From Deltaproteobacteria bacterium (GTDB taxonomy: Bacteria; Myxococcota_A; UBA9160; SZUA-336): a stretch of DNA of 36,325 nucleotides. The stretch is taken from contig VGRW01000033.1 of assembly GCA_016875225.1 (NCBI GenBank), positions 1-36,325 of the forward strand, read 5' to 3'. A program made the translations under genes and the position numbers. The notes under the pieces are model-generated. The model did not search any database. It saw only the letters and a list, made by a program, of their open reading frames with translations, and was not told the origin of the DNA. This document shows positions 1 to 15,821 of this stretch, one piece after another (position 1 is the first letter of the stretch; each line of letters starts with the position of its first letter).

Positions 1-1213
1 CCCCGCGCAGGATGATCTCCATCTGCGCGCGGCGGCGCTCGAGATCCTCGCGGTTCAGCGACAGATCCGTCGCCATCCGATTGAAGCCCGCCACGAGCTG
101 CGCGATCTCGTCGCGTCCACCCTGCTGCACGCGCACGTCGAGATTTCCCGCGCCGACCTCCGCGGTGGCGAACGCGAGCCGCTCGATGGGCTCGGTGACC
201 TGCTTGGCGAGCCGGAAGCCGATCCAGGACGAGAAGAGCACGCTCGCCAGCGTCACCATCGCGAGCAGCATCAGCATGCTGCCCTGGAACGTGCCCTTGT
301 TCGGCTGCAGCCGTTCGTACGCCTCGCGGGCGGCGCGGATCGCGGAGACGCGTTTGCCGATCGCGCGGGGCAGGAAGCGGTTCACGACCACCACACCGAC
401 GATCTCGCCCGCCTCGTCGCGGCGGACCGGCACCACGGAGCGCACCAGCTCGCCCGGGCCCGCGCCCTCGACGACGCTGCGCTCCTCGCCGTCGAGCCCG
501 GCCCGGATCAGCGCGGAGCTGGCGGCCTCGAACGCCACCACGGCAACCTCGGGGTGGGTCGCCGTGGCGAGAGCGTCGAGCTTGTCGTCGAAGACCTCGA
601 CCACGCCCAGGCCGTACTCGGCCTGCTTCTCCGAGACCAGGCGCTGCAGCGCGGCGGACGACCCGTCTCGGAGCAGGTCGCGCTCGCCGAGCACGCCGGC
701 GATCCGGCGCGCGAAGAACAGCGAGGACTGCTCCGCCTCGGCGTAGTAGGTGTCGGCGACCTCGACCGACTGCCCCAGGCTCTCGGAGAGCTCGAACTCG
801 AACCAGATGTTGACGGCTCGCGACACCAGCAGCGCCGAGAGCACGAAGAGCGCCGACGACGACAGCGCCGTCGCGAAGACGAACGAGATCACGAAGCGCG
901 CGTTCAGCCGCGAGCCGAAGCGCCCGGTGCGCCGATCGATGAAGAGCTTCACCGCGTTGCGCGCGAGCAGGAAGACCAGCAGCCCGATCAGGATGACGCT
1001 CGCGTGCACCAGAGCGAGCAGAAGCGTGTCGCTGCCGATCGGCAGCAGCTTCGAGCGCGTGATCAGCGCCTGCTCGACCGCCAGCAGCACCGCGACGACG
1101 ACGAACGCGAGCGCCGCCAGGCGCCAGTCGCGCCGCCGCCGCCGCCGCTCCGGCGCGGGCAGGCCGGGGCGCTCGTCGATCTTCTGCTCCGAGCCGTTTC
1201 GTGCCGCTTTCAA
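1..1213 (-). CDS. NtrY-like membrane sensor histidine kinase, N-terminal part (cut by window edge)
   Basis: Reading the minus strand gives an open frame of about 404 residues with no stop before the window edge. The layout matches NtrY, the sensor kinase that phosphorylates the NtrX response regulator. A basic run of six Arg sits near residue 23, hydrophobic segments lie at about 33-50, 62-85 and 108-130, an extracytoplasmic region spans about 130-305, another membrane segment about 311-333, and a HAMP linker about 333-385. The frame ends where NtrY proteins begin their PAS domain, so PAS, dimerisation and ATPase parts lie outside the window. An in-frame TAG closely precedes a TTG at 1213, the best start I can find, although it has no clear ribosome-binding site. 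The gene is divergent from the giant TPR gene. Family assignment is by architecture and short motifs, so another HAMP kinase is possible. Confidence 0.8.
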   Translation of the reverse strand, partial: MKAARNGSEQKIDERPGLPAPERRRRRRDWRLAALAFVVVAVLLAVEQALITRSKLLPIGSDTLLLALVHASVILIGLLVFLLARNAVKLFIDRRTGRFGSRLNARFVISFVFATALSSSALFVLSALLVSRAVNIWFEFELSESLGQSVEVADTYYAEAEQSSLFFARRIAGVLGERDLLRDGSSAALQRLVSEKQAEYGLGVVEVFDDKLDALATATHPEVAVVAFEAASSALIRAGLDGEERSVVEGAGPGELVRSVVPVRRDEAGEIVGVVVVNRFLPRAIGKRVSAIRAAREAYERLQPNKGTFQGSMLMLLAMVTLASVLFSSWIGFRLAKQVTEPIERLAFATAEVGAGNLDVRVQQGGRDEIAQLVAGFNRMATDLSLNREDLERRRAQMEIILRG

Positions 1214-1301
1214 GCCGACGCAACGCTAACGCACCAAAGCCGATCGGCTCAAGCGGAGAAGCGCGCATGGCCGGATCGTAAGCCCACGAAAACCCGCCGC
1301 T

Positions 1302-4300
1302 TTGCAGGTGACTTCCGTCAAGCGCTGCGGGCCGGATTCCGAAGAGCCGGAGGTGCAAACGCGCGCAAAGAATCCGGCGACCGCGGACCAGGAAGAGCGC
1401 ATCGCGCGACTCCTGAAGAGCTTCTCCACCGACCCGACCGATGGCCGTGCCTTCCGCACGCTGGAGGAGCACCTGTTCCTCGCCGGCTCGTGGCGAGAGC
1501 TCGCGGGGGTGTACGAGTGCCGGCTCGGCGTGCTCGCGAGCCCGAGCGACGAACACGCGAATCTGCTCGGCCGACTCGCGAACGTCCTGGCCGACCGCAT
1601 CGGTGATACCGCCGCCGCGCGTGCGCGCTACGAGGAGCTGCTGCGCGTGCAGCCGCGAAATCCGAGCGCGCTCTCCTCGCTGCGCCGGCTGCTCACGCGC
1701 TCGGGTGAGCTGACCAGCGCCCTGCAGCTCGCGGAGCTGGAGGAGGCGCAATCGCTCGAGGCCAAGCCTCGCGCGCGGCTGCTGGCCGAGATCGGAGAGC
1801 TCTGGCGCGGCGTCGGCGACGCGGCCGAAGCCCGCAGGCGCTTCGAGGCCGCGCTCGAGCTCGATCCCGGCTGCGCGGCCGCGCTGGCCGGAGTCGCCGC
1901 CATGGCCGAACGACCGTCCGAGCCGGCCGACGCGATCGGAGCGCTCGAGCGACGTCTGCCGACGCTCGCCGGCGCCGCGCGCGCGGACGCGCTGGAGCAG
2001 ATCGTCGCGCTCCTGCCCGCCGCCGAGAGCACCCGCGCGCGCGAGCTGCTCGAGACGCTGCTGCGCGAGTTCCCGGAGCGGCGCGCGCCGCTCGAGCGGC
2101 TGATCGAGCTCGAGCGCAGCGCCGCCAACGTGAGCCGCGTGGGAGAGCTGCAGAGCGCCCTCTTCGCGCTCGTCCGCGATCCGGCGGAGCGCGTGCGCCT
2201 CGCGCTCGAGGCGTGCACGCTCCAGCTCGACGAGGCGGGCGAGGTCGCGGCGGCGGAGCACTGGTGCGAGCAGGCGAACGGGATCGCGCCGGAGAGCGCC
2301 GCCGTACAGAAGCTCCGACTGCGCGTCCATCGCAGGACCGCGAACACCCCCCGCGTGCTCGAGGCGCTCGAGAGACTCGTCGAGATCGAGGGCGACTCGC
2401 CGATGCGCCTGCTCGAGATCGCGGTCCTGCACGAGCGCGAAGGGCGCGCCGAGCAAGCGATCGAGTGGCTCGAGCGACTTCTCGCGCGCGACCCCTACGA
2501 CGACGAATCGCTCGCCATCCTCGAGCGCTGCCTCGCGAGGCTCGGCCGCCACGGCGAGCGCGCCGAGGTGCTCGAGCGGCGCGCAGCGGCGGCGAACAGC
2601 AACGAGGCCGCCGCCGACGCGATCGTCGAGCTCGGCAACCTCCACCTGAGCGCGCTTGCCGATCTCGCCGGGGCGGAAGCGTCCTACCGCCGCGCGCTGG
2701 AGCAGGTGCCGGGGCACGCGGAAGCGTCCACCCAGCTTCGCGAGCTTTTGCGCAAGGGCGAGCGCTTCGCCGAGCTCGCTTCGCTGCTGGAGCAGATCGC
2801 GAAGAGCGCGCCCGCCGGTGCGGAGCGCGCGCGGCTGCTCTGCGAGCTCGCCGAGCTGCAGACGGATCGGCTCGCGGAGCCTGCCGCGGCGCGGCGCAGC
2901 TTCGAGGCCGCGCTCGAATCCGACCCGGCCTGCGCGGCTGCGATCGCCGGGATCGACGCGCTGGCAGGCGACGTTCGCGAGCCGGGCGCGAGGATCACGG
3001 CCTGCGAGCTCGAGCTCGCGCTCGAGCCGCCCGACGCTCGGGCCGTGGAGCTTCTGGAGCTGCTCGCGCGCGCGGCGCTCGAGCTCGGCGATGCCGCGCG
3101 CGCCCGCACGGCCGTCGCACGTTGGGCAACGCTGGCACCGACTCCGGCTTCGCTCGGGCTGCAGGCCGAGCTCGCCCGGGGCGCCTCGGACGAGGAAGGC
3201 GAGGCCGCGGCGCTCGAGGGTCTCGAGGTGCTGCTGCAGGCGACGCCGGCCGCCCACGCGCTCGTCTGCCTGCGACTCGCCGAGCTGTCTCTCGGCAGAC
3301 CCGCGGCCGACGCCCCGCGCGGAGCTGCGTTCTGGTATCGCCGCGCACTCGCGAGCGCTCCCGACGACGCAGAGCTGCGCCGGCGGGTGATCGAGCTTCA
3401 TCGCCGCACCGGAAACCTTCCGGAGCTCGCAAGCGAGCTGCGCGCGGCGCTCGATCGCGCCGGTAGCGCCGCACCGATCGCGCTCTCGCTCGAGCTCGCA
3501 CGCGCGCTCGCCGAGCTCGGAAATCTGAGCGAGGCGAGTCGCGTGCTTCAGCCCGCCTTCGAGCGCGCTCCGGAATCCGCGGATGCCGGAGACCTGCTCG
3601 AAAGCCTCCTGGCCGAGCAGGATCGCATCGAGGAGCTCTGCGACGTGCTCGCGCTTCGGCTCGCCCACGAGCGCGACCCCGCGCGTCGGCGGGAGCTGGC
3701 ACACCGCCAGGCCGGGCTGCTGCTCGAAGGCCTGCAGCGGGCGCCGGATGCCGTGGCGGCGCTGCGCGAGTTCGCGGATCCGACGCGCGACGGCCGACTC
3801 GAGAGCCTCTTCGCGCGCGCGCTCGACGCCGCCGGTGCCCGCGACGAGCTCGAGTCCTGGCTCGAGATGCGCGAGGCGCACGTCGACCCGCACGAGCGGA
3901 CGGCCCTGCGGCTCCGACTCGCCGCGCTGAAGGAGCAGGCGGGCCGCCCGCGCGAGGCGATCACCTGTCTTTCGCGCGCCCTCCACGAGGGCGAAGCGGG
4001 CGACGCGGTGCGCTCGGTTCTGCTCGGACTGCTGCGCGAGCACGGATCGAGCGAAGAGCAGCGGGCGCTCCTCGACGACCTGATCGAGCGAAGCTCCGAT
4101 CCCGCGCTGCGCGCAGCGCTCTGGATCGACCGGGCACGGCTCCTCGCGGAGAAGCTGCGCGATCCCGCCGGCGCGCTCGCCGACCTGGAGCGGGCGCAAG
4201 CGTCGATTCGCCTCGGCTCCGACGAGCTGCGCCTGGTCGCCGCTCTCTGCGCGTCGCTTTCGGCCACCGAGAAGCAGGCCGCGGCTCTTGCGAGGCTCGC

Positions 4301-7300
4301 GGAGTCCACGCCCGACGCCGAGGAGCGCCGCAGCACGTTGCTCCAGCTCTCGCAGCTCTTCGCGGAGGGACCGGAATCGGTCCGCAGCGCGGCGCGCGCG
4401 GAGGAGACGCTGGGTCGGCTGCTCGCACTGGATCCGGCCGACGCGGACGCGTTCGATCGCATCGCCAGGATCTACGAGACGTCGGGTCGCGGCGAGCCGC
4501 TGCGCAGGCTGCTCGCGGAGCGCCTCGCGCAGCCGGCGCTTCGGCCGGACGAGCGCAAGCCGCTCTCCGCCAAGCTCGCCGGGCTCCAGCTCGAGGCCGG
4601 CCAGCCCAGCCTGGCCGCCGAGACGCTCGTCGACTGCCGCAGCCGCGCCGACGAGAGCGACGCCGCGCTGGACGAGCTGCTCTTCAGAGCTCTCGACGCC
4701 GCCGGAAACTCGGTCGGACAGGCGCGACTCTGCGCGGAGCGGGTGGACGCCTGCGAGGGCGCCGATCGCGTGCGCTGGCTCCGGCGCTGGCTCCGCGCGC
4801 TCGAGCGCAACGGGGACGTTCCCGAGTCGCGCCTCGAGCTGATCGATCGGGTGCTCGCGGCGCATCCCGGCGACGGGGATCTGATCGCGGCGCGAATCCC
4901 GCTGCTGCGTGAGCTCGGAACCCCGCAGGCCCTCGCCGACGGGCTGGAGCGCACGCTCGCGGGGTCGGGCCCCGCCTCGGCCGCCGAACGTGCCGTGCTC
5001 GCGCGGGAGCTGCTGCGGCTCTACGAAGGTCCGCTCGCGAACCGCGAGCGGGCGCTCGCGCTCGTCGAGCGAGAGGTCGCCAACGACCCGGCGCTTCGCC
5101 CGCGAGGCCTCGCGGCCGCGCGCGCCCTCGGCAACGCCGAGGCCGAGCTGGCCCTGCTCCGCCCGCTGCTCGCCGACGGCCTGGCCGGCGCGCTCCCTGT
5201 GGACGAGCTGCGCGACCTGGGCCTGGCGCTGTTTCGCGCCGGGGAGACCGAACCCTCCTACGCGATTCTGTGTCGAGCCCACGAGCTCGTCTCCCGCGAT
5301 CGAGAGGTGCTCGCGGCGCTCGAAGCGCTGGCGCGGGGTGCGCGGGACGATGCGCGCCTGGCCGAGCTTCTCGCCTCGCGCTTCCCGCTCGAAGCCGAGG
5401 CCTCGCGAGCTCGAATCGCCGCGGAAGCGGCCGCGGTCGCAGCTCGGCGCGGCGACGCGCAGGCCGAGCTTCTCTGGCTGCGCAAGCTGAACGCGCTCAC
5501 GCCGGGGACGGACGAGAACCTGACCCGCCGGCTCGCGCTCGAGCGATCGGTGGGCACGGCCAGCGGACGTCTCGACGCGATTCTCGCCCTGCTCGCGATC
5601 GCGACCGATCCCGAGGAGCGCGCCGAGCTCGAAGCCGCCGGGGGCGAGGTGCTCGTCGAGAGCGGGCGCCTCGCGGACGCGAGCGCCTGTTTCGCGCGCG
5701 CTCTGGCCGGCAGGCGTGCGCCGCGGCTTGGCTGGCTGCGCGCGCAGAGCGACCTGCTCGCGCGCCTCGGCCGCACCACCGAGCGCGTGGACGTGCTGCG
5801 ATTGCTGGCCAGCCATCCCGAGGCCGCGCCCGAGGAGCGCGCGCGTCACCAGCGCGAGCGCATCGAGCTCCTCTCGTCGCATCCGGAGCTGCGCGAAGAG
5901 GCCGCGCTCCAGATGCGCATGCTGATCGACTCGGATCCGAGCGCCGCGCGCCCGGCCCAGCTCGAGCGCATGCTCCGCCTGCTGCAGCTCTACCGCGATC
6001 TCGGCCGCGACGCCGAGTGGTGCGCGCTCGCCGAGCGCGTGCACGGGCTCTCGCCCGAAGCGGAGCGGGCCTCGCTCGAACGCGAGATCGCGGAGCGGCT
6101 CGGCCGCAGGCTGGGCTCGACCGACCAGGCCATCGCCGCGTGGCAGCGCGTGCTGCTGCGCGCGCCCGCCGATTCCGCCGCGCTCCAGGGGCTGTGCGAG
6201 CTGCTGCGCAGGCCCGGCGACGAGGCGCGTCGCGCCGATGCGCTCGAGCGGCTCGCGGCGACAGGCCCCGCCGGCGCCGAACGCCTCTGGCTCGACGCGA
6301 GCCGCCTGCGCTGGAGCTCGCTCGCCGACGCGCGCGCGGCGCTAGACGACGTCGATCGGGCGCTCGCGCTCGCGCCTCGGCTCGACGGCGCGCACGATCT
6401 GCGCTCCGAACTCTGCGCCCACCTCGATCAGCACAGCGAGGAGGCCGCCTCGCTGCGCGAGCTGCTCGACGTCGAGCCGCGCGGCCCCCAGGCCGCCGAC
6501 CGCTGGCTGAGACTCGCCCAGCTCGCCGCGGCCCGCGACGACGCCGCGCCCGAGGCGATCGCTTCGGCGGAGCAGGCGCTCCTGCTGGCGCGCGGGCAGC
6601 GCTCGATGGTGCGCGAGGTGCGGCGGGTCTTCGAACGCGCGCGAGCCTGGGAACGCGCCCGCGATCTGCTTCGAGAAGAGGTCGAGGCTGCGACACGAGC
6701 GGAGGCGCCCGCTCTGCTGCGCCGACTGGCCAGGATCGCCTGGGACGAGCTTCGCGACGCGGTGCTCGCCTGCGACGCGCTCGAGGCGATCGAGGCGAGC
6801 GAGGCGCTGCGCGTGGACGACCGCGAGCGCTTCGCGGCAGCGCTTGCCGAGCTCGGTCGACACTCCGAGTCGCTGGCTCAGCGCGAGAAGGCGCTGACGG
6901 AGGTCGGAGACCTCGCCACCGGCGCAAGCTGGCTCGCGCTCGCGCGCGAGACGATGCAGAGGCTCGACGATCCCGGCCGGACACGCGAGGCCTGCGATCG
7001 CGCGCTCGCTCGCGAGCCCCACCTGATCGAGGCGCTCGAGCTCCGCGCCGGCGTCAACGCACGACTCTGCGATCCCGCGCGCGAGCTCGAGGACGTGCTC
7101 GAGCTCGCCGAGCTCGAGGCGTCGCCCGTCCAGTCCGCCACCTGGTTCACCCGCGGCGCGGAGATCGCGCGAAACCGGCTTGGCGACGAGGCGCGAGCCG
7201 GGGCGCTGTACCGGGCCGCGCTGAAGCGCGATTCGAGCCACCTTCCCGCGCTTCTCGGAGCCGGCGAGCTCGCGCTCGCCCGCGGCGACTGGGCCGAGGC

Positions 7301-9104
7301 CGAGCGAAGCCACGGGCTGGCCACCGCGCTCCTTCCCGGTACACCGGAAGCTCCGCGGCTCGCCGCAGTGGCGCGTTCGGCCGCGCGGGCCGCGGCCGAG
7401 CAGCAGCGCCAGGCGGAGGCGTACCGTTACCTGGAGCTCTCGCTTCAGCAGGAGCCCGACCACCCGGAGTCCCTCGACGCGATCGCGATCCAGTCCCTGC
7501 GGCTCGGTGCCTACGAGAAGGCGCGCGACAGCATCGACCGGCGCCTGCGCCGCTCGGATCTCGCGCCGCAGGAGTACGCGGATCGGCTCGTGAAGCTCGC
7601 CCAGGCCTGCGAAGGCCTGCAGCAGCTCGATCGCGCCGCAGCGGCTCTCGAAGAGGTACTGTCGATCCGGCCCGCGGACGAGGTCTCTCGGGCGCGCGCC
7701 GTCGATCTTCTCGAGCGTCTGGGCGAGACCGAGCGCGCGGTGCTGCAGCTCGACGCCTGGAGCGAGCAGGCGCCTGCGGAGTTCGCCTCGCGGCTGCGCG
7801 TGCGCGCAGCCGCTCTCGAGCTCTCGGCGGGCGATCGCGCCAGCGCGCGCGCGCGTCTGGAGGCGATCACCGCGACCGACGCGGCGCCGGACGATGCGTG
7901 GACCGCGCTTCTCGATCTGTCGCGCGCCGACGACGTCCCGGCCTCGACGCTCGCGCTCGCAGAGCGCGCCCTCTGCAGCGTTCGGTCGCCTCGCGCGCGC
8001 GGCGCGATCCTCTGGCTCGCCGCGGAAGCCGATCTTGCACTGGGCCGCCGCGCTGACGCGGCGCGGCTCGCGATCGAAGCGCTCGGCTGCGACCCGGCCC
8101 ACCTCCCCGCCGCGCGACTCCTCGCCGCGGAGCTCGGCCAGCTCGAGGACTGGCGACAGGCGGTGGCGCTGCTCGAGCGCGCGCTCGACGTGGCCCACCC
8201 GGAACGCACGGTCGAATCGGAGCTGTGGGAGGCAATCGGTCGCGCCTACGCGGGGCCACTCGAGGACATCGAGCGCGCGCAGCGCTGCTACCGGCGCGCG
8301 CTCGAGTGCAACCCGCTGCGCTCGAGCGCGCGCGAGGCGCTCGCAGACACGACCGCCTTCGATCCGTCTGCGCACCGCGAGTCGGTCGCTGCACACCGCG
8401 AGCTGCTGGCGGCCAATCCAGCGCGACGCAGCTCCTGGCGCGCGCTCGAGCGCATCGCTGAGCACTGGAAGCGAGAGCGCGCGCAGATCACCTGCTCTGC
8501 GGTGCTGAAGGCGCTCGCGCCCGCATCGGGGACCGCAGCGGCGCCGCAGATGCTGCTCGCCGAGCTCGGTCCTGCCGGAAACTCGAGCGTCGCGGCGGCG
8601 AGCGAGCTCCTCCTGGCCCTTGCCGAGGCAGGCGCCCAGCCAGCAAGCGGCGCGGACGGAGCCGGTATCCCGAAGCTCTCGTTCGGGCTGAAGCGCGAGG
8701 TCGCCGCGATCGCCGGCAGCTCCTGGGGTCTTCCCGACGAGGTGCTCAAGAACGCCTGGAGTCAGCCGGGCGAGGACACGGGCCAGCCCGGCGAGGACCT
8801 CGGCCGGCGGGCACGCCGTCGCCTGAAGCGCGTCATGCGCAGCGTCGACGCCGAGCTGCTTCGCGCGCTCGAGCCCGAGGTCTGGCGCGCCGAGGTTCTG
8901 GCGCAAGCGGCCGCGCGACTGGTCGCCACGAGCGCGATGGACCTACGCGAGCTGCTGCTCGAGCTCACCGAGTGTTGGCCCGCGACGGCCGAGCTGCAGC
9001 TGCGCAGCAACGGGGACCTCGCGGCGGGAATCCAGCTCTGCCCGCCCGCCAGGGCGCTCCTGCTCCGGCTCGGAAACGCCACGATCGCCTCGCTCGGACT
9101 CTGA
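1302..9104 (+). CDS. Giant tetratricopeptide-repeat protein (about 2,600 residues)
   Basis: One uninterrupted frame of 2,600 codons consists almost wholly of Ala/Leu/Glu/Arg-rich helical pairs with the TPR pattern (A..RYEELL..QP.N, ARRRFEAALELDP, AEASYRRALEQVP and so on). I see no signal peptide, membrane segment or catalytic motif, so it looks like a cytoplasmic scaffold. Two blocks, at about residues 177-205 and 530-558, are near copies, which points to growth by internal duplication. The C-terminal 150 residues are less repetitive. The start is uncertain: TTG at 1302, GTG at 1308 or GTG at 1353 are in frame, and none has a well-placed ribosome-binding site. The gene is divergent from the NtrY-like gene across 88 bases and convergent with lpxC. 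TPR arrays bind protein partners, but nothing here names the partner, so no function is assigned. Confidence 0.88.
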   Translation: MQVTSVKRCGPDSEEPEVQTRAKNPATADQEERIARLLKSFSTDPTDGRAFRTLEEHLFLAGSWRELAGVYECRLGVLASPSDEHANLLGRLANVLADRIGDTAAARARYEELLRVQPRNPSALSSLRRLLTRSGELTSALQLAELEEAQSLEAKPRARLLAEIGELWRGVGDAAEARRRFEAALELDPGCAAALAGVAAMAERPSEPADAIGALERRLPTLAGAARADALEQIVALLPAAESTRARELLETLLREFPERRAPLERLIELERSAANVSRVGELQSALFALVRDPAERVRLALEACTLQLDEAGEVAAAEHWCEQANGIAPESAAVQKLRLRVHRRTANTPRVLEALERLVEIEGDSPMRLLEIAVLHEREGRAEQAIEWLERLLARDPYDDESLAILERCLARLGRHGERAEVLERRAAAANSNEAAADAIVELGNLHLSALADLAGAEASYRRALEQVPGHAEASTQLRELLRKGERFAELASLLEQIAKSAPAGAERARLLCELAELQTDRLAEPAAARRSFEAALESDPACAAAIAGIDALAGDVREPGARITACELELALEPPDARAVELLELLARAALELGDAARARTAVARWATLAPTPASLGLQAELARGASDEEGEAAALEGLEVLLQATPAAHALVCLRLAELSLGRPAADAPRGAAFWYRRALASAPDDAELRRRVIELHRRTGNLPELASELRAALDRAGSAAPIALSLELARALAELGNLSEASRVLQPAFERAPESADAGDLLESLLAEQDRIEELCDVLALRLAHERDPARRRELAHRQAGLLLEGLQRAPDAVAALREFADPTRDGRLESLFARALDAAGARDELESWLEMREAHVDPHERTALRLRLAALKEQAGRPREAITCLSRALHEGEAGDAVRSVLLGLLREHGSSEEQRALLDDLIERSSDPALRAALWIDRARLLAEKLRDPAGALADLERAQASIRLGSDELRLVAALCASLSATEKQAAALARLAESTPDAEERRSTLLQLSQLFAEGPESVRSAARAEETLGRLLALDPADADAFDRIARIYETSGRGEPLRRLLAERLAQPALRPDERKPLSAKLAGLQLEAGQPSLAAETLVDCRSRADESDAALDELLFRALDAAGNSVGQARLCAERVDACEGADRVRWLRRWLRALERNGDVPESRLELIDRVLAAHPGDGDLIAARIPLLRELGTPQALADGLERTLAGSGPASAAERAVLARELLRLYEGPLANRERALALVEREVANDPALRPRGLAAARALGNAEAELALLRPLLADGLAGALPVDELRDLGLALFRAGETEPSYAILCRAHELVSRDREVLAALEALARGARDDARLAELLASRFPLEAEASRARIAAEAAAVAARRGDAQAELLWLRKLNALTPGTDENLTRRLALERSVGTASGRLDAILALLAIATDPEERAELEAAGGEVLVESGRLADASACFARALAGRRAPRLGWLRAQSDLLARLGRTTERVDVLRLLASHPEAAPEERARHQRERIELLSSHPELREEAALQMRMLIDSDPSAARPAQLERMLRLLQLYRDLGRDAEWCALAERVHGLSPEAERASLEREIAERLGRRLGSTDQAIAAWQRVLLRAPADSAALQGLCELLRRPGDEARRADALERLAATGPAGAERLWLDASRLRWSSLADARAALDDVDRALALAPRLDGAHDLRSELCAHLDQHSEEAASLRELLDVEPRGPQAADRWLRLAQLAAARDDAAPEAIASAEQALLLARGQRSMVREVRRVFERARAWERARDLLREEVEAATRAEAPALLRRLARIAWDELRDAVLACDALEAIEASEALRVDDRERFAAALAELGRHSESLAQREKALTEVGDLATGASWLALARETMQRLDDPGRTREACDRALAREPHLIEALELRAGVNARLCDPARELEDVLELAELEASPVQSATWFTRGAEIARNRLGDEARAGALYRAALKRDSSHLPALLGAGELALARGDWAEAERSHGLATALLPGTPEAPRLAAVARSAARAAAEQQRQAEAYRYLELSLQQEPDHPESLDAIAIQSLRLGAYEKARDSIDRRLRRSDLAPQEYADRLVKLAQACEGLQQLDRAAAALEEVLSIRPADEVSRARAVDLLERLGETERAVLQLDAWSEQAPAEFASRLRVRAAALELSAGDRASARARLEAITATDAAPDDAWTALLDLSRADDVPASTLALAERALCSVRSPRARGAILWLAAEADLALGRRADAARLAIEALGCDPAHLPAARLLAAELGQLEDWRQAVALLERALDVAHPERTVESELWEAIGRAYAGPLEDIERAQRCYRRALECNPLRSSAREALADTTAFDPSAHRESVAAHRELLAANPARRSSWRALERIAEHWKRERAQITCSAVLKALAPASGTAAAPQMLLAELGPAGNSSVAAASELLLALAEAGAQPASGADGAGIPKLSFGLKREVAAIAGSSWGLPDEVLKNAWSQPGEDTGQPGEDLGRRARRRLKRVMRSVDAELLRALEPEVWRAEVLAQAAARLVATSAMDLRELLLELTECWPATAELQLRSNGDLAAGIQLCPPARALLLRLGNATIASLGL

Positions 9105-9153: not shown

Positions 9154-10077
9154 CTAGACGCGGCCGGGGACGGGCTGCAGCACCGCCCCTTCGCGGGCCG
9201 GCTCGCGTTCGCTGCTCGGCGTCTCGAGCGTCCAGCAGCTCGGATTCGCGCGGATCTCGGCGACCAGCGCCTGGTGAAGCTTGTGGCCGCCGCGCACCGC
9301 CTTCACGTGGCCCTGGAGGGGCACTCCGAGAAGCGCGAGATCTCCGATCAGATCGAGCACCTTGTGGCGCGCGAACTCGTCTCGGAAGCGCAGGCCTTCG
9401 GTGTTCAACACGCGCGTCTCGTCGAGCACGATCGCGTTCGAGAGCGACCCTCCGCGCGCGAGGCCGATCGCCTGCAAGCGCTGCGTGTCCTTCAGGAAGC
9501 CAAAGGTTCGCGCGGGAGCGATCTCGCGCGCGAAGAGCTCCGGGCTGATCACCCAGCTCTCGAGCGCCTGGCGGCCGATCACCGGATGGGAGTAGTCGAT
9601 CTCCACGGAGACCTTGAAGTCTCGAGACGGCAGCACCCGAACCCAGCGATTTCCGTCTCGGACTTCGATCGGGCGGCGGATCACGATCCGGCGCCGCATT
9701 CGCGCCTGTGGCCGGACACCGGCCTGCTGGATCAAGTAGACGAACGAGCCGGCGCTGCCGTCCATGATCGGAAGCTCGGGCCCGGAGACCTCGACCGTGC
9801 AGTTGTCGATGCCCATTCCACGCAGGGCCGCGACCAGGTGCTCGATCGTCGACAGGCTCGCGCCCTCGTTGCCCAGCGTCGTCGCGAGCGTCGTGTCGGT
9901 CACCCATTCGGCACGCGCGGGGAAGCGCGTCGGCTTCTCGAGGTCGGTGCGCACGAACAAGATCCCGGTTCCGGGGGCTGCCGGCCGCAGTGCCAGATCG
10001 ACCGGCTCGCCGGTGTGCAGCCCGATTCCGGTGCATTGCACACGCGATGCGATCGTATGCTCGACGCCTCTAAGCAC
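9154..10077 (-). CDS. lpxC: UDP-3-O-acyl-N-acetylglucosamine deacetylase LpxC
   Basis: This is the zinc-dependent deacetylase of the committed step of lipid A synthesis in the cytoplasm. With the GTG start at 10077 (a G-run about 7 bases upstream) the protein has 307 residues, and the key positions fall almost exactly where E. coli LpxC has them: Glu79-His80 in STIEHLVAAL, His238 and Asp242 in HKVLDLIGDLALLG, and catalytic His265 in GGHKLHQAL. The LPIMDGSA and ARTFGF motifs are also present. Longer in-frame starts, up to 10149, would begin inside the sigma-54 promoter and add residues the family lacks. Downstream it converges with the giant TPR gene. Upstream, on the same strand, lies the TPR-kinase gene, separated by 242 bases that carry the promoter. 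All catalytic residues are intact. Confidence 0.97.
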   Translation of the reverse strand: MLRGVEHTIASRVQCTGIGLHTGEPVDLALRPAAPGTGILFVRTDLEKPTRFPARAEWVTDTTLATTLGNEGASLSTIEHLVAALRGMGIDNCTVEVSGPELPIMDGSAGSFVYLIQQAGVRPQARMRRRIVIRRPIEVRDGNRWVRVLPSRDFKVSVEIDYSHPVIGRQALESWVISPELFAREIAPARTFGFLKDTQRLQAIGLARGGSLSNAIVLDETRVLNTEGLRFRDEFARHKVLDLIGDLALLGVPLQGHVKAVRGGHKLHQALVAEIRANPSCWTLETPSSEREPAREGAVLQPVPGRV

Positions 10078-10144
10078 GACTACCCCCCGAAATCCGCCCC
10101 AAGGCGCCCGGCAAAGGGCCCCCCCACAGGGATGCCCATCCAAA

Positions 10145-10160
10145 AGCAACCTGCGTGCCA
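10145..10160 (-). promoter_or_regulatory. Sigma-54 (-24/-12) promoter of lpxC
   Basis: On the minus strand the site reads TGGCACG, four bases, TTGCT: an exact match to the sigma-54 consensus, with ten bases between the invariant GG (10159-10158) and GC (10147-10146). It predicts a transcript start near 10134, giving a leader of about 57 bases before the lpxC GTG at 10077. Sigma-54 promoters need an ATP-driven enhancer-binding protein, so lpxC would be under signal-dependent control. The match is visible in the sequence; activity is inferred. Confidence 0.85.
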
Positions 10161-10198
10161 GTTGCCTCGAAAAGCCGGCGGTTCGGCTCCGGATTCAG

Positions 10199-10216
10199 AA
10201 GTGCTCGATCGCACTT
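10199..10216. promoter_or_regulatory. Inverted repeat, candidate enhancer-protein site (proximal)
   Basis: AAGTGC and GCACTT form perfect 6-bp arms around a 6-base spacer. The centre lies about 73 bases upstream of the predicted lpxC transcript start, within the range of activator sites for sigma-54 promoters. It is one of two 6-6-6 repeats in this gap, although the arm sequences differ between them. Confidence 0.45.
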
Positions 10217-10262
10217 GTGATTTGGAGCACATCCCCGGCTTCGCCAAGCCGCGACCGGCGAT

Positions 10263-10280
10263 CGTGTCGCACCTGACACG
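10263..10280. promoter_or_regulatory. Inverted repeat, candidate enhancer-protein site (distal)
   Basis: CGTGTC and GACACG form perfect 6-bp arms around a 6-base spacer, about 137 bases upstream of the predicted lpxC start and 64 bases (about six helical turns) from the proximal repeat. It also lies about 40 bases after the kinase stop codon, but has no T-run, so a terminator is less likely. Confidence 0.45.
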
Positions 10281-10319
10281 GATCGAGAGTGACGTTTCAA
10301 TTACGACGTGACGCGATTA

Positions 10320-12911
10320 TCACGCCTTCGCCAGCCGGTCGAGGTCCTCGATCAGCTCCTTCGCCGTCTGGTAGCGCTCGGCCGGCGCCTTCTTCAGACA
10401 GCGCAGGATGATCTGGGAGAGCCCCACGGGGATATCGGCCTTGACGTCGCGAGGATCGGGCGGCGGGGTGTGGACGTGGTGATAGGGGACGTTCCCCTTC
10501 TGGAACGGGAGCTCACCGGTGGCGAGCTCGAAGATCGTGACACCGAGCGAGTAGATGTCGGTGCGGTGGTCGACGTCGCGTCCCAGGGTCTGCTCCGGCG
10601 ACATGTAGAAGGGCGTGCCCGAGATCATCGTCGTGGCGTTGCGCACCTCTTCCATGAGCTTGGCCAGGCCGAAGTCCATGATCTTCACGTGGCGCTCCGC
10701 GGTCCACATCGTGTTCGCGGTCTTGATGTCGCGGTGCACGACCTTGCGCCCGTGAGCGTAGGAGAGCGCGGAGGCCATCTGCCGCAGGATGTAGACCACC
10801 GCGTTGGCCGAGACCGGTCCGCGCTGGCGCAGGATCTCCTTCAGCGTCGTGCCCTCGACCCGCTCCATCGCCATGTAGAAGCCGTGCTCGGACTCTCCGG
10901 CGTCGTAGACGGTGACGATGTTCGGGTGGTTGAGCGCCGCGGCGGCCTTCGCTTCGCGCAGGAAGTTCTTGAGCGCGTTCGGATTCTCGCGCAGCCCCTC
11001 GGGCAGAACCTTGTACGCGACCTCGCGCTCGAGGACTGAATCTCGCGCGAGGTACACGACTCCCATCCCGCCGCGCCCGAGCTCCCGCACGATCTCGTAG
11101 CGGCTGGTGGCGGGAGCGGGGGCGGTCGGCGCGGTGAGCGGCGGCAGGTCCTCGCTCTGCCTGGCGACCATCCCCTTGCAGCGCTCGAGACAAGCCGCCG
11201 CGTCCTTGTAGTGGTAGTCGAACGAGAGAATGCGCTCGAAGATCTCGATCGCGCCCACCAGATCGCCCTGTCGCTCGTGCGCGCGGCCGAGCTCGTAGAA
11301 CGCATCGACGCTGTTTCGCGCGATCGTCTGCGACCCGGTCGCCTCGGTGAACTTCTTGACCGAAAGGCTGTGCATGCCCTTCTCCTGGAACATTCGCCCC
11401 AGGATCGAGCAGGCCTCGCCGTAGTTCGGGCTGTCCGCAGGAATCTGCTGCATCAGGCGGATCGCTCCGTCGGCCTTGCCCTGCTCCGCGTAGAGCTTGC
11501 CGGCGGTGAAGGTGTCGCCCGCCTTCTCGAGCATCTCGGCCTGCAGATCGGCGCGACCGGCCCGCGCGTAGGATTCCGCGGCCTCCGCGAACTTCCCGCA
11601 GCGCGAATACGCCTCCGCGGCCGGCTCGAGCTGCTCCGCGGCTCGAAACGCCTCGGCGGCGGCCGGAAAGTCGTCGGCGTCGCGGTAGCAGACGCCGGCC
11701 TCGCCATAGCGACCGAGCTTCCGGTAGAGATCGCCCGCCGCCGCGTGCTCGCCGGCCTTCCTCAGGTGTTCGACGGCCTCCGCTTCCTGTCCCTTGTCGC
11801 GCAGGTACTCACCCAGCGCGCGCGCCGCGCCAACGGCGTCACCGAGGCGTTCGAGCGCCTTGGCGGCCAGGTCGCCTCGCCCGACCCGCAGGAAGAGCTC
11901 GGCCGCGCGTTTGAAGTTGCCGGTCTGGAAGGCAATCTTGGCCGCCGGTCCGAACGCCTCGGAGCGCACCAGCATGGCTTCGGCCTCGTCGAAGCGCTCG
12001 AGCTTCACCAGGATCTCGGCCGCCTTCTTGGCGATGCCGCGCATCTCCTTGGCCTTCTGCTCGCTCTTCGCGCCAGCGACGCCGCCCTCCTCGTTGAAGG
12101 CGGAGAGCAGGCTCTCGGCGGCGAGCGCGTCGGCGCCGGACTTCAGGAAAGCCTGCGCGGCGTGCCGGTGGAAGCCGATCTTCTGGTAGCACTTGCCGGC
12201 CTCTCGGTGATTCCCGGCGCGCTCGAACATGTCGCCCGCGACCGAGAACTTGCCGGCGGCGAAGTAGCACTTCGCCGCGTCCTCGTGTCGGCCGAGCTGC
12301 GCGTAGATGCGGCCCGCGTGCTCCTCCTTGCCGAGCTTCTTGTAGAGATCCGCAGCCTCGTCGAAACGGTTCTGATCGTGACGGACCTCGGCCGCTCGGC
12401 CCAGCAGCTCGGCGCGAAGGAAGATCTCGATCGCCTCCTCCTTCAGGTTGCGCCCGAGGAGGAATTCGCCGGCGGCCTCCGCACCCTGATCCTGCTCGAT
12501 CTGCGCCGCCTGCTTCAGGATCCGCTTGGACTCCTTTGCCGACGGCGCGCTGAGGTCCGTCTCGGCGGCGCTGGCCAGGGCTGCGGCCTTGGGGCTTGCG
12601 GATTTCTTCGCGGTCCGTCCCCGCCTGCGGCCGCGGAAGGCTGGAGCGAGCGCGTAGGCCGCAAGTACGACTGCCGCGCCGAGCATGCCGAAGTGCAGAA
12701 CCGGAAGGCGCAGGATCTGCGCGCCCGCGAGCCCCGCGCTCAGAGCCTCGTCCGCGGATTGGGCTCCGCGCTCCGAGGTCTCGATCTTCGCGCGAGCACG
12801 CAGCCCGGCGGCGAGCCCGTCGCCGCCGCGCGCGAGCACCACGCCCGCGACTCCGCCCATGGCCAGGGGGATCGCGAGCAGCAGGGCGATGACACGCAGA
12901 CGCTTGCGCAC
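10320..12911 (-). CDS. Membrane-anchored TPR protein with C-terminal Ser/Thr protein kinase domain
   Basis: The 863-residue product has two membrane segments (about 7-28 and 69-92) flanked by basic residues (RKR at the start, RGRRRGR after the second). This predicts a periplasmic loop of about 40 residues and a cytoplasmic body. Residues about 130-575 are TPR-like helical repeats, and 604-863 are a complete Hanks-type kinase: glycine loop GRGGMGVVY, Lys634 in VAYK, HRDIKTAN with Asp728, DFG with Asp746, and SPEQ. All catalytic residues are kept, so it should be active. The order is unusual, since most bacterial kinases carry the catalytic domain first. The start is GTG at 12911 with a weak ribosome-binding site. 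It lies directly upstream of lpxC and 37 bases downstream of the permease gene. The substrate is unknown. Confidence 0.93.
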   Translation of the reverse strand: MRKRLRVIALLLAIPLAMGGVAGVVLARGGDGLAAGLRARAKIETSERGAQSADEALSAGLAGAQILRLPVLHFGMLGAAVVLAAYALAPAFRGRRRGRTAKKSASPKAAALASAAETDLSAPSAKESKRILKQAAQIEQDQGAEAAGEFLLGRNLKEEAIEIFLRAELLGRAAEVRHDQNRFDEAADLYKKLGKEEHAGRIYAQLGRHEDAAKCYFAAGKFSVAGDMFERAGNHREAGKCYQKIGFHRHAAQAFLKSGADALAAESLLSAFNEEGGVAGAKSEQKAKEMRGIAKKAAEILVKLERFDEAEAMLVRSEAFGPAAKIAFQTGNFKRAAELFLRVGRGDLAAKALERLGDAVGAARALGEYLRDKGQEAEAVEHLRKAGEHAAAGDLYRKLGRYGEAGVCYRDADDFPAAAEAFRAAEQLEPAAEAYSRCGKFAEAAESYARAGRADLQAEMLEKAGDTFTAGKLYAEQGKADGAIRLMQQIPADSPNYGEACSILGRMFQEKGMHSLSVKKFTEATGSQTIARNSVDAFYELGRAHERQGDLVGAIEIFERILSFDYHYKDAAACLERCKGMVARQSEDLPPLTAPTAPAPATSRYEIVRELGRGGMGVVYLARDSVLEREVAYKVLPEGLRENPNALKNFLREAKAAAALNHPNIVTVYDAGESEHGFYMAMERVEGTTLKEILRQRGPVSANAVVYILRQMASALSYAHGRKVVHRDIKTANTMWTAERHVKIMDFGLAKLMEEVRNATTMISGTPFYMSPEQTLGRDVDHRTDIYSLGVTIFELATGELPFQKGNVPYHHVHTPPPDPRDVKADIPVGLSQIILRCLKKAPAERYQTAKELIEDLDRLAKA

Positions 12912-13706: not shown

Positions 13707-14718
<1,012 letters not shown>

Positions 14719-14735
<17 letters not shown>

Positions 14736-15312
14736 GCAACGCCTCCTTGATCAGCGTCTCGAGGCTCGATCCCTCCGGCGCGAGCTCGAGCGCGCGGCGC
14801 ACCGCGCGCTCCGCATGCGGCCGAGGGTAACCGAGGTTGACCAGCGCGCTCTCGGCGGCAGCCGACGCCTCGGGGGCAGCCGCACGCTCCGATCTCGACA
14901 CGGCTTCGAGCGCCAGCGCCTTCTCGCGCAGATCGATCGCGAGTCGCTCGGCGGTCTTCTTGCCGACTCCGGGGATCCTGGTGAGCGCGACGACGTCCCC
15001 GGCGCGCAGCGCGGTGAGCAGCCGGCCGACGGGAAGACCGGAGAGGATCCCGAGCGCGAGCTTCGGGCCGACGCCGCTGGCCGCGATCAGCAGCCGGAAC
15101 AGGACGCGCTCGAGCTCGGAACCGAAGCCGTACAGCTGGAGCGCGTCCTCGCGCACGTGGGTGTGGATCTGCAGGCGGACCGTCTTGCCCTCGTCGGGCA
15201 GCTCGAAGAAGGTCGAGAGCGGCACGCGCACCTCGTAGCCCACGCCATGGACGTCGAGCACGACGCCCTCGGGCTTCTTCTCGACGAGTGCGCCTTCGAG
15301 CCGCGCGATCAA
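14719..15312 (-). CDS. ruvA: Holliday junction DNA-binding protein RuvA
   Basis: RuvA binds four-way junctions as a tetramer and loads RuvB. The TTG start at 15312 gives the family's usual N-terminus ([11 protein letters not shown], then [10 protein letters not shown]) and 197 residues, close to E. coli's 203. Two helix-hairpin-helix motifs are visible ([10 protein letters not shown] and [14 protein letters not shown]), followed by a flexible linker and the C-terminal RuvB-binding helices ([16 protein letters not shown]). The TTG overlaps the TGA stop of ruvC (TTGA) and no separate ribosome-binding site is evident, so translation probably depends on ruvC. A much longer in-frame reading upstream is only the shadow of ruvC. 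Confidence 0.96.
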
Positions 15313-15821
15313 GGCGCGCGCACCAAGCCGCGAGCGGGCGCGACGACGCGCGCGCGCAGTCGCGCGCTCATGCCGTGACAGATCGCGATCGCGAGCGCGT
15401 CGGCCTCGTCGCTCGGCGGCGGCGCGGTCAGGCCGAGCAGGCGCTGCACCATGCGCATGACCTGCGACTTGTCCGCGCGTCCGTAGCCGGTGACTGCGGT
15501 CTTGACCTGCGCGGGGGTGTACTCCGCGGCGCCGAGCCCCGCGCTTCCGCAGGTCGCCAGCGCTACGCCGCGCGCGTGGCCGAGCACGAGCGCGCTGCGA
15601 ACGTTGCGCGCGCTGAAGATCGACTCGATCGCCGCGCACTCCGGAGCGAGCTCGGCAATCGCGCCTGCGAGCTCGCTCTGCAGCTGCGCGAGCCGCGCCG
15701 CGAGCGTCTCTCCGCGCGCTCGGATCGTGCCGCCGGCGATCCTGCGCAGCGTCGATCCCTCGACGCTGACCACGCCGTAGCCCGTGGCCACAGAGCCCGG
15801 ATCGATTCCCAGGACCCGCAC
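15309..15821 (-). CDS. ruvC: Crossover junction endodeoxyribonuclease RuvC
   Basis: RuvC is the nuclease that resolves Holliday junctions after RuvAB migration. With the GTG start at 15821 (a G-run about five bases upstream) the protein is 170 residues, and the four catalytic acids fall at the family positions: Asp7 in GIDPGS, Glu66 in AAIES, Asp138 and Asp141 in SDEADALA. The motif YTPAQVKTAVTGYGRADK is also typical. It is the first ruv gene, 91 bases after yebC, and overlaps ruvA by four bases. The yebC-ruvC-ruvA-ruvB order is common in bacteria. Confidence 0.97.
   Translation of the reverse strand: MRVLGIDPGSVATGYGVVSVEGSTLRRIAGGTIRARGETLAARLAQLQSELAGAIAELAPECAAIESIFSARNVRSALVLGHARGVALATCGSAGLGAAEYTPAQVKTAVTGYGRADKSQVMRMVQRLLGLTAPPPSDEADALAIAICHGMSARLRARVVAPARGLVRAP

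Follow-up and report, generated by a model that had tools for sequence, protein, structure and literature searches.

Conserved upstream sequence strongly supports placing lpxC, whose product commits the cell to lipid A synthesis, behind a sigma-54 promoter in the uncultured, myxobacteria-like bacterial class to which this DNA belongs, and the membrane kinase NtrY with its response regulator NtrX is probably the dedicated activator of that promoter, acting through a pair of tandem palindromes. If true, a deeply conserved activator devoted essentially to a single recognisable target would place outer-membrane synthesis under the control of a signal in a large bacterial group. In what follows, the window is the whole stretch of 36,325 nucleotides that was analysed, and its genome was compared with 59 relatives.

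The lpxC gene (UDP-3-O-acyl-N-acetylglucosamine deacetylase) occupies 9154-10077 on the minus strand with a GTG start, and matches both TIGR00325 (349 bits, cut-off 187) and PF03331. Upstream on the same strand are a gene for a TPR and Ser/Thr kinase protein (10320-12911), followed by ruvB and ruvA (13707-15639), which also precede lpxC-ntrYX in a deltaproteobacterial MAG. The exact sigma-54 box that had been reported ahead of lpxC is real and correctly spaced. It reads TGGCACG-CAGG-TTGCTT (TGGCACGCAGGTTGCTT) on the minus strand at 10160-10144, with GG-N10-GC spacing, and lies 69 nt before the lpxC GTG (10077), which predicts a transcript start near 10134. When the window was scored against the consensus TGGCAYR-N4-TTGCW with GG-N10-GC, this was the sole site with at least 10 of 12 matches, and its own score of 12/12 came up once when 20,000 intergenic regions of matching composition were simulated. 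Exact copies of TGGCACG-N4-TTGC number three in the 3.87-Mb genome, with one in the reversed control, and the genome encodes the sigma-54 factor itself (PF04552, 214 bits). A consensus scan near lpxC found no sigma-70 promoter and no terminator, and the window holds no Rfam element; lpxC would appear to have no other strong promoter. Boxes scoring 10-12 of 12 are found at the lpxC loci of all 30 relatives that carry the tandem in strict or degenerate form, across nine families of the class, and this conservation turns the sigma-54 control suggested in the preliminary description into a strongly supported reading.

Finding the enhancer was less direct, as the two inverted repeats first proposed for that role did not hold up. 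These are CGTGTC-N6-GACACG (10263-10280) and AAGTGC-N6-GCACTT (10199-10216), both on the minus strand. They do exist, and two such 6-6-6 repeats within 242 bp are unusual in a first-order simulation (P=0.002). The whole window contains 55 repeats of this kind (1.5 per kb), and G001, a genome of the same genus, lacks both members of the pair, as do five other family genomes checked. The search for conservation in relatives that had been proposed therefore gave a split result, with the box retained in 30 genomes and the repeats lost in genus and family alike. Because they are not conserved even within the genus, the 6-6-6 repeats are probably not the enhancer; they were rejected as candidates, and an enhancer function for them is now scarcely credible.

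A conserved tandem about 10-40 bp further upstream is the likely enhancer, judging from its distribution and position. In the window it spans 10289-10323 and consists of site 1, GTGATAATCGCGTCAC (10308-10323, minus strand), which shares bases with the kinase gene's stop codon, and site 2, GTAATTGAAACGTCAC (10289-10304, minus strand), 19 bp from site 1. Each is a 16-bp palindrome of the form GTRAY-N6-RTYAC, and their starts are 19 bp apart in family f1 and 20 bp apart in the other families. Searching the 60 whole genomes (the window's own and the 59 relatives) for the strict tandem returned it in 28, at one place in each and always ahead of lpxC, with zero hits in the reversed control. When degenerate forms are included, 30 lpxC loci have both box and tandem and 18 have neither. 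The distance from the end of the tandem to the box is 124-136 bp in most loci (extremes 62 and 175; about 128 bp in the window), within the range of about 80-200 bp before the start that applies to conserved activator sites. Outside the class, the tandem was not found at lpxC loci of Myxococcia, deltaproteobacteria or gamma/beta-type bacteria.

A symmetric tandem could suit many dimeric regulators, and it can be asked whether a protein unrelated to sigma-54, for example a repressor, occupies it, with the box driven by an activator that has no recognisable site. Such a reading could draw on a separate CRP/FNR-like palindrome, TGTGCTCCAAATCACA (10216-10231, minus strand), which lies between the candidate enhancer and the box and matches 9 of 10 consensus positions (p ~0.003 by shuffling). 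Sites of this type (TGTGA-N6-TCACR) occur in about half of the loci with box and tandem, mostly 53-65 bp before the box. A repressor-type regulator on the tandem is nevertheless very unlikely, for box and tandem are gained or lost jointly in every genome read, and they stand at a distance typical of enhancers.

The preferred reading, in which NtrX binds the tandem, starts from the NtrY-like kinase that had been noticed near lpxC. The kinase is real: positions 2-1225 (minus strand) encode the N-terminal part of an ntrY-like membrane histidine kinase with a HAMP domain, truncated where the contig ends. Another contig of this genome, C43, repeats 41 of these residues at its start and continues through the remainder of ntrY, including the PAS, HisKA and HATPase domains, into ntrX (L187:1152-2528). 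The regulator has a receiver domain (REC, PF00072), a sigma-54 AAA domain (PF00158) and a Fis-type helix-turn-helix (PF02954, HTH_8), and its best PDB matches are NtrX. Its best NCBIfam family is NF051870, and since the score of 508 bits falls below the equivalog cut-off of 600, the protein is best described as NtrX-like and not as the nitrogen-assimilation equivalog. In the NtrX proteins of the class, the phospho-acceptor motif and GAFTGA, the sigma-54 contact loop, are intact, and the recognition helix is nearly invariant. Further along C43, at L187 2943-6633 downstream of ntrX, the frames read by eye like pyrK, pyrD and nusA, and these neighbours may be useful landmarks for locating ntrYX in other genomes.

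Linkage between lpxC and ntrX recurs in the relatives. In 19 genomes the two genes share a contig and a strand, with ntrX 3.5-13 kb downstream of lpxC; this count covers linkage visible within single contigs. The gap is 3.5-4 kb in G007, G008 and G041 and 11-13 kb in the remainder. A giant TPR protein gene (in the window 1302-9104, plus strand, a 2600-aa frame with TPR matches) separates lpxC from ntrY in the window and several relatives, and in the window and two of the longer cases examined (G038 and G058) the gene between lpxC and ntrYX encodes 2,400-2,650 residues. In G025, ntrX is apparently unlinked from lpxC.

Distribution provides the second line of evidence. A dedicated search of the 60 genomes gave 33 NtrX orthologues at E<=7e-14, with weaker matches beginning at 2.7e-11. 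For 48 genomes the region upstream of lpxC was read and a place on the LpxC tree obtained, and in 48 of 48 the presence of NtrX agrees with that of box plus tandem (30 with, 18 without). Together with the synteny, this co-occurrence strengthens the link to NtrY that had at first been only suspected. On the LpxC tree, each of the two traits needs about three changes, and these coincide. Since there are only about three, and one alone falls on strongly supported branches, the co-occurrence is suggestive and not statistically conclusive. This small number of independent changes also leaves some room for another view, that sigma-54 and the tandem enhancer are as described and another of the roughly 17 sigma-54 activators of the genome binds the tandem, NtrX being a neighbour lost in the same lineages for other reasons. 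We regard this as rather unlikely. When the DNA-binding tails of the activators were joined into a single query and compared with 18 genomes, the NtrX-like tail alone, among the matches listed with E up to about 2e-10, was found in all tested enhancer-bearing genomes and in none of seven f4 genomes. The other activators were rejected as binders of the tandem, as their distributions among those matches do not fit. In addition, ntrX is the linked activator, its recognition helix is conserved, and the adjacency of lpxC and ntrYX is deep. NtrX is probably the protein that binds the tandem, and its binding would activate lpxC.

Lineages that lack the arrangement provide a contrast. Box and tandem are both missing upstream of lpxC in the 16 genomes of family f4 and in G030 and G059, two members of f8, and in f4 the same kinase gene still stands upstream of lpxC despite the missing box. 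Sigma-54 itself was not lost, because eight of the nine box-less genomes tested still hold it; the exception, G059, is an assembly that is 78% complete. The f4 lineages and G030 have lost box, tandem and NtrX and kept sigma-54. As to what drives lpxC in f4, a CTAnnCT motif occurs 38-65 nt before the gene in 10 of the 16 loci (L163-L179) and could perhaps be a replacement -10 element; it is too weak to call as the promoter. A second lpxC in G028 (contig C22, L168) differs from the rest of that genome, with AT-rich upstream DNA and 36% identity, and the contig may be a contaminant.

From these features a working model can be proposed. At the membrane NtrY would sense some envelope or redox state and phosphorylate NtrX, which would then bind the tandem palindromes at 10289-10323 and oligomerise. 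From there NtrX could loop over about 130 bp to the box, where its GAFTGA loop would open the sigma-54 polymerase complex, and lpxC would be transcribed from the promoter at 10144-10160. Since box and tandem come and go with NtrY/NtrX, outer-membrane synthesis in this class is probably switched by a signal.

Related arrangements can be seen beyond the class. In Geobacteraceae MAG32 and in IMCC39146, lpxC, an NtrY-type kinase gene and an NtrX-type activator gene are consecutive. In ADurb.Bin151, the lpxC-ntrY-ntrX run includes one small gene, and ruvAB-like genes lie upstream, comparable to ruvAB in the window. The boxes at these three lpxC loci score 11, 11 and 10 of 12, respectively. Several deltaproteobacterial lpxC genes (L160, L118, L148, L090, L145 and L113) are preceded by a different palindrome resembling TGTGG-N8-CCACA. 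In those loci where a sigma-54 box could be recognised, the palindrome is about 100-136 bp upstream of it, a candidate site for enhancer binding by the NtrX-type regulator linked to lpxC there. Recognition helices read ERSNLHRK or ERSNLHKK in the two deltaproteobacterial regulators aligned and mostly ARESLSRK in this class, a difference that would fit an altered DNA site between the groups. Boxes of 10-11 of 12 also precede lpxC in Pyxidicoccus, Corallococcus and a Myxococcaceae MAG. A sigma-54 box as a universal lpxC feature can be rejected: 10 of 12 was reached in only 2 of 64 gamma/beta-type loci, and the 26 lpxC loci taken from other classes of the phylum showed no box.

As a kind of regulation, sigma-54 control of lpxC is already known, to judge from a precedent in Desulfovibrio vulgaris Hildenborough, where lpxC (DVU2917) is the sole mapped target of DVU2934, a sigma-54 response regulator with GAFTGA (PMC3333781). 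The validated motif was located before lpxC in just two further species of Desulfovibrio, and in Syntrophobacter lpxC is directly upstream of the operon of a regulator orthologous to DVU2934 (PMC3333781, PMC4641369). Going by its published description, that system resembles the present one in tying a GAFTGA-bearing sigma-54 activator to lpxC. It differs in that the DVU2934 operon also holds an HD-GYP response regulator, and the present case stands apart in its phylum, its tandem site and its distribution across a class. The NtrYX family has likewise been tied to the envelope and the lpxC transcript in alphaproteobacteria such as Rhodobacter sphaeroides and Caulobacter (PMC7240162, PMC12444477). 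In R. sphaeroides, NtrYX lowers the lpxC transcript, no NtrX site was found at lpxC, and the regulon is broad (PMC7240162). There the effect on lpxC is indirect and negative, whereas the signs here are of direct sigma-54 activation with one main target. A 2025 survey of the predicted sigma-54 regulon of Myxococcia includes, in its available text, the LpxC family (COG0774) among enriched targets and names there no lpxC activator or enhancer (PMC12316311). The Myxococcia lpxC loci named above have sigma-54 boxes but lack the tandem of this class. In a 2025 review of lipid A regulation, NtrYX appears for alphaproteobacteria alone, as a negative influence of broad scope, and Desulfovibrio and Myxococcota are both absent. 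No paper on this arrangement in myxobacteria was found in the open-access literature; within the literature searched, the class-wide enhancer, the assignment of NtrX and the joint loss of both with the box appear to be new.

These findings may bear on the failure to delete rpoN in Myxococcus xanthus and Geobacter sulfurreducens, as a requirement of lpxC for sigma-54 could explain, in a way open to test, why rpoN is essential in Myxococcus and Geobacter. If lpxC needs sigma-54 there too, and relatives of these organisms do have boxes, expressing it from another promoter should at least partly relieve the requirement for rpoN. More broadly, a dedicated NtrY/NtrX-sigma-54 switch for lipid A entry could be ancestral across deltaproteobacteria and this class, with lpxC dependence as a main reason that rpoN is undeletable in those two organisms, and with escape by joint loss of ntrX, enhancer and box and recourse to another promoter. 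We advance this only tentatively and give it somewhat less than an even chance. The simple lpxC answer to the rpoN puzzle is weakened by the other essential sigma-54 targets already proposed in Geobacter and by the 26 box-less lpxC loci in the phylum; the main text of the Geobacter rpoN study, for its part, names no lpx gene.

Lastly, the window's genome (G000) contains other sigma-54 features. Three paralogous sigma-54 activators, on contigs C79 (L192), C148 (L193) and C13 (L194), combine receiver domains that are unusual and look degenerate with closely similar, PRGTLRHRIHKY-like DNA-binding tails, with no close tail match among those listed for the 17 other genomes searched. The other two exact boxes of the genome lie at G000:C79:4798-4812 and G000:C41:12103-12117, and the lpxC enhancer palindrome does not occur within 300 bp of either. 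The former is divergent from the activator on C79 and ahead of an ABC-transporter ATPase-like frame, and the latter is ahead of a patatin-like frame. Single palindromes elsewhere in the genome may be further NtrX targets.
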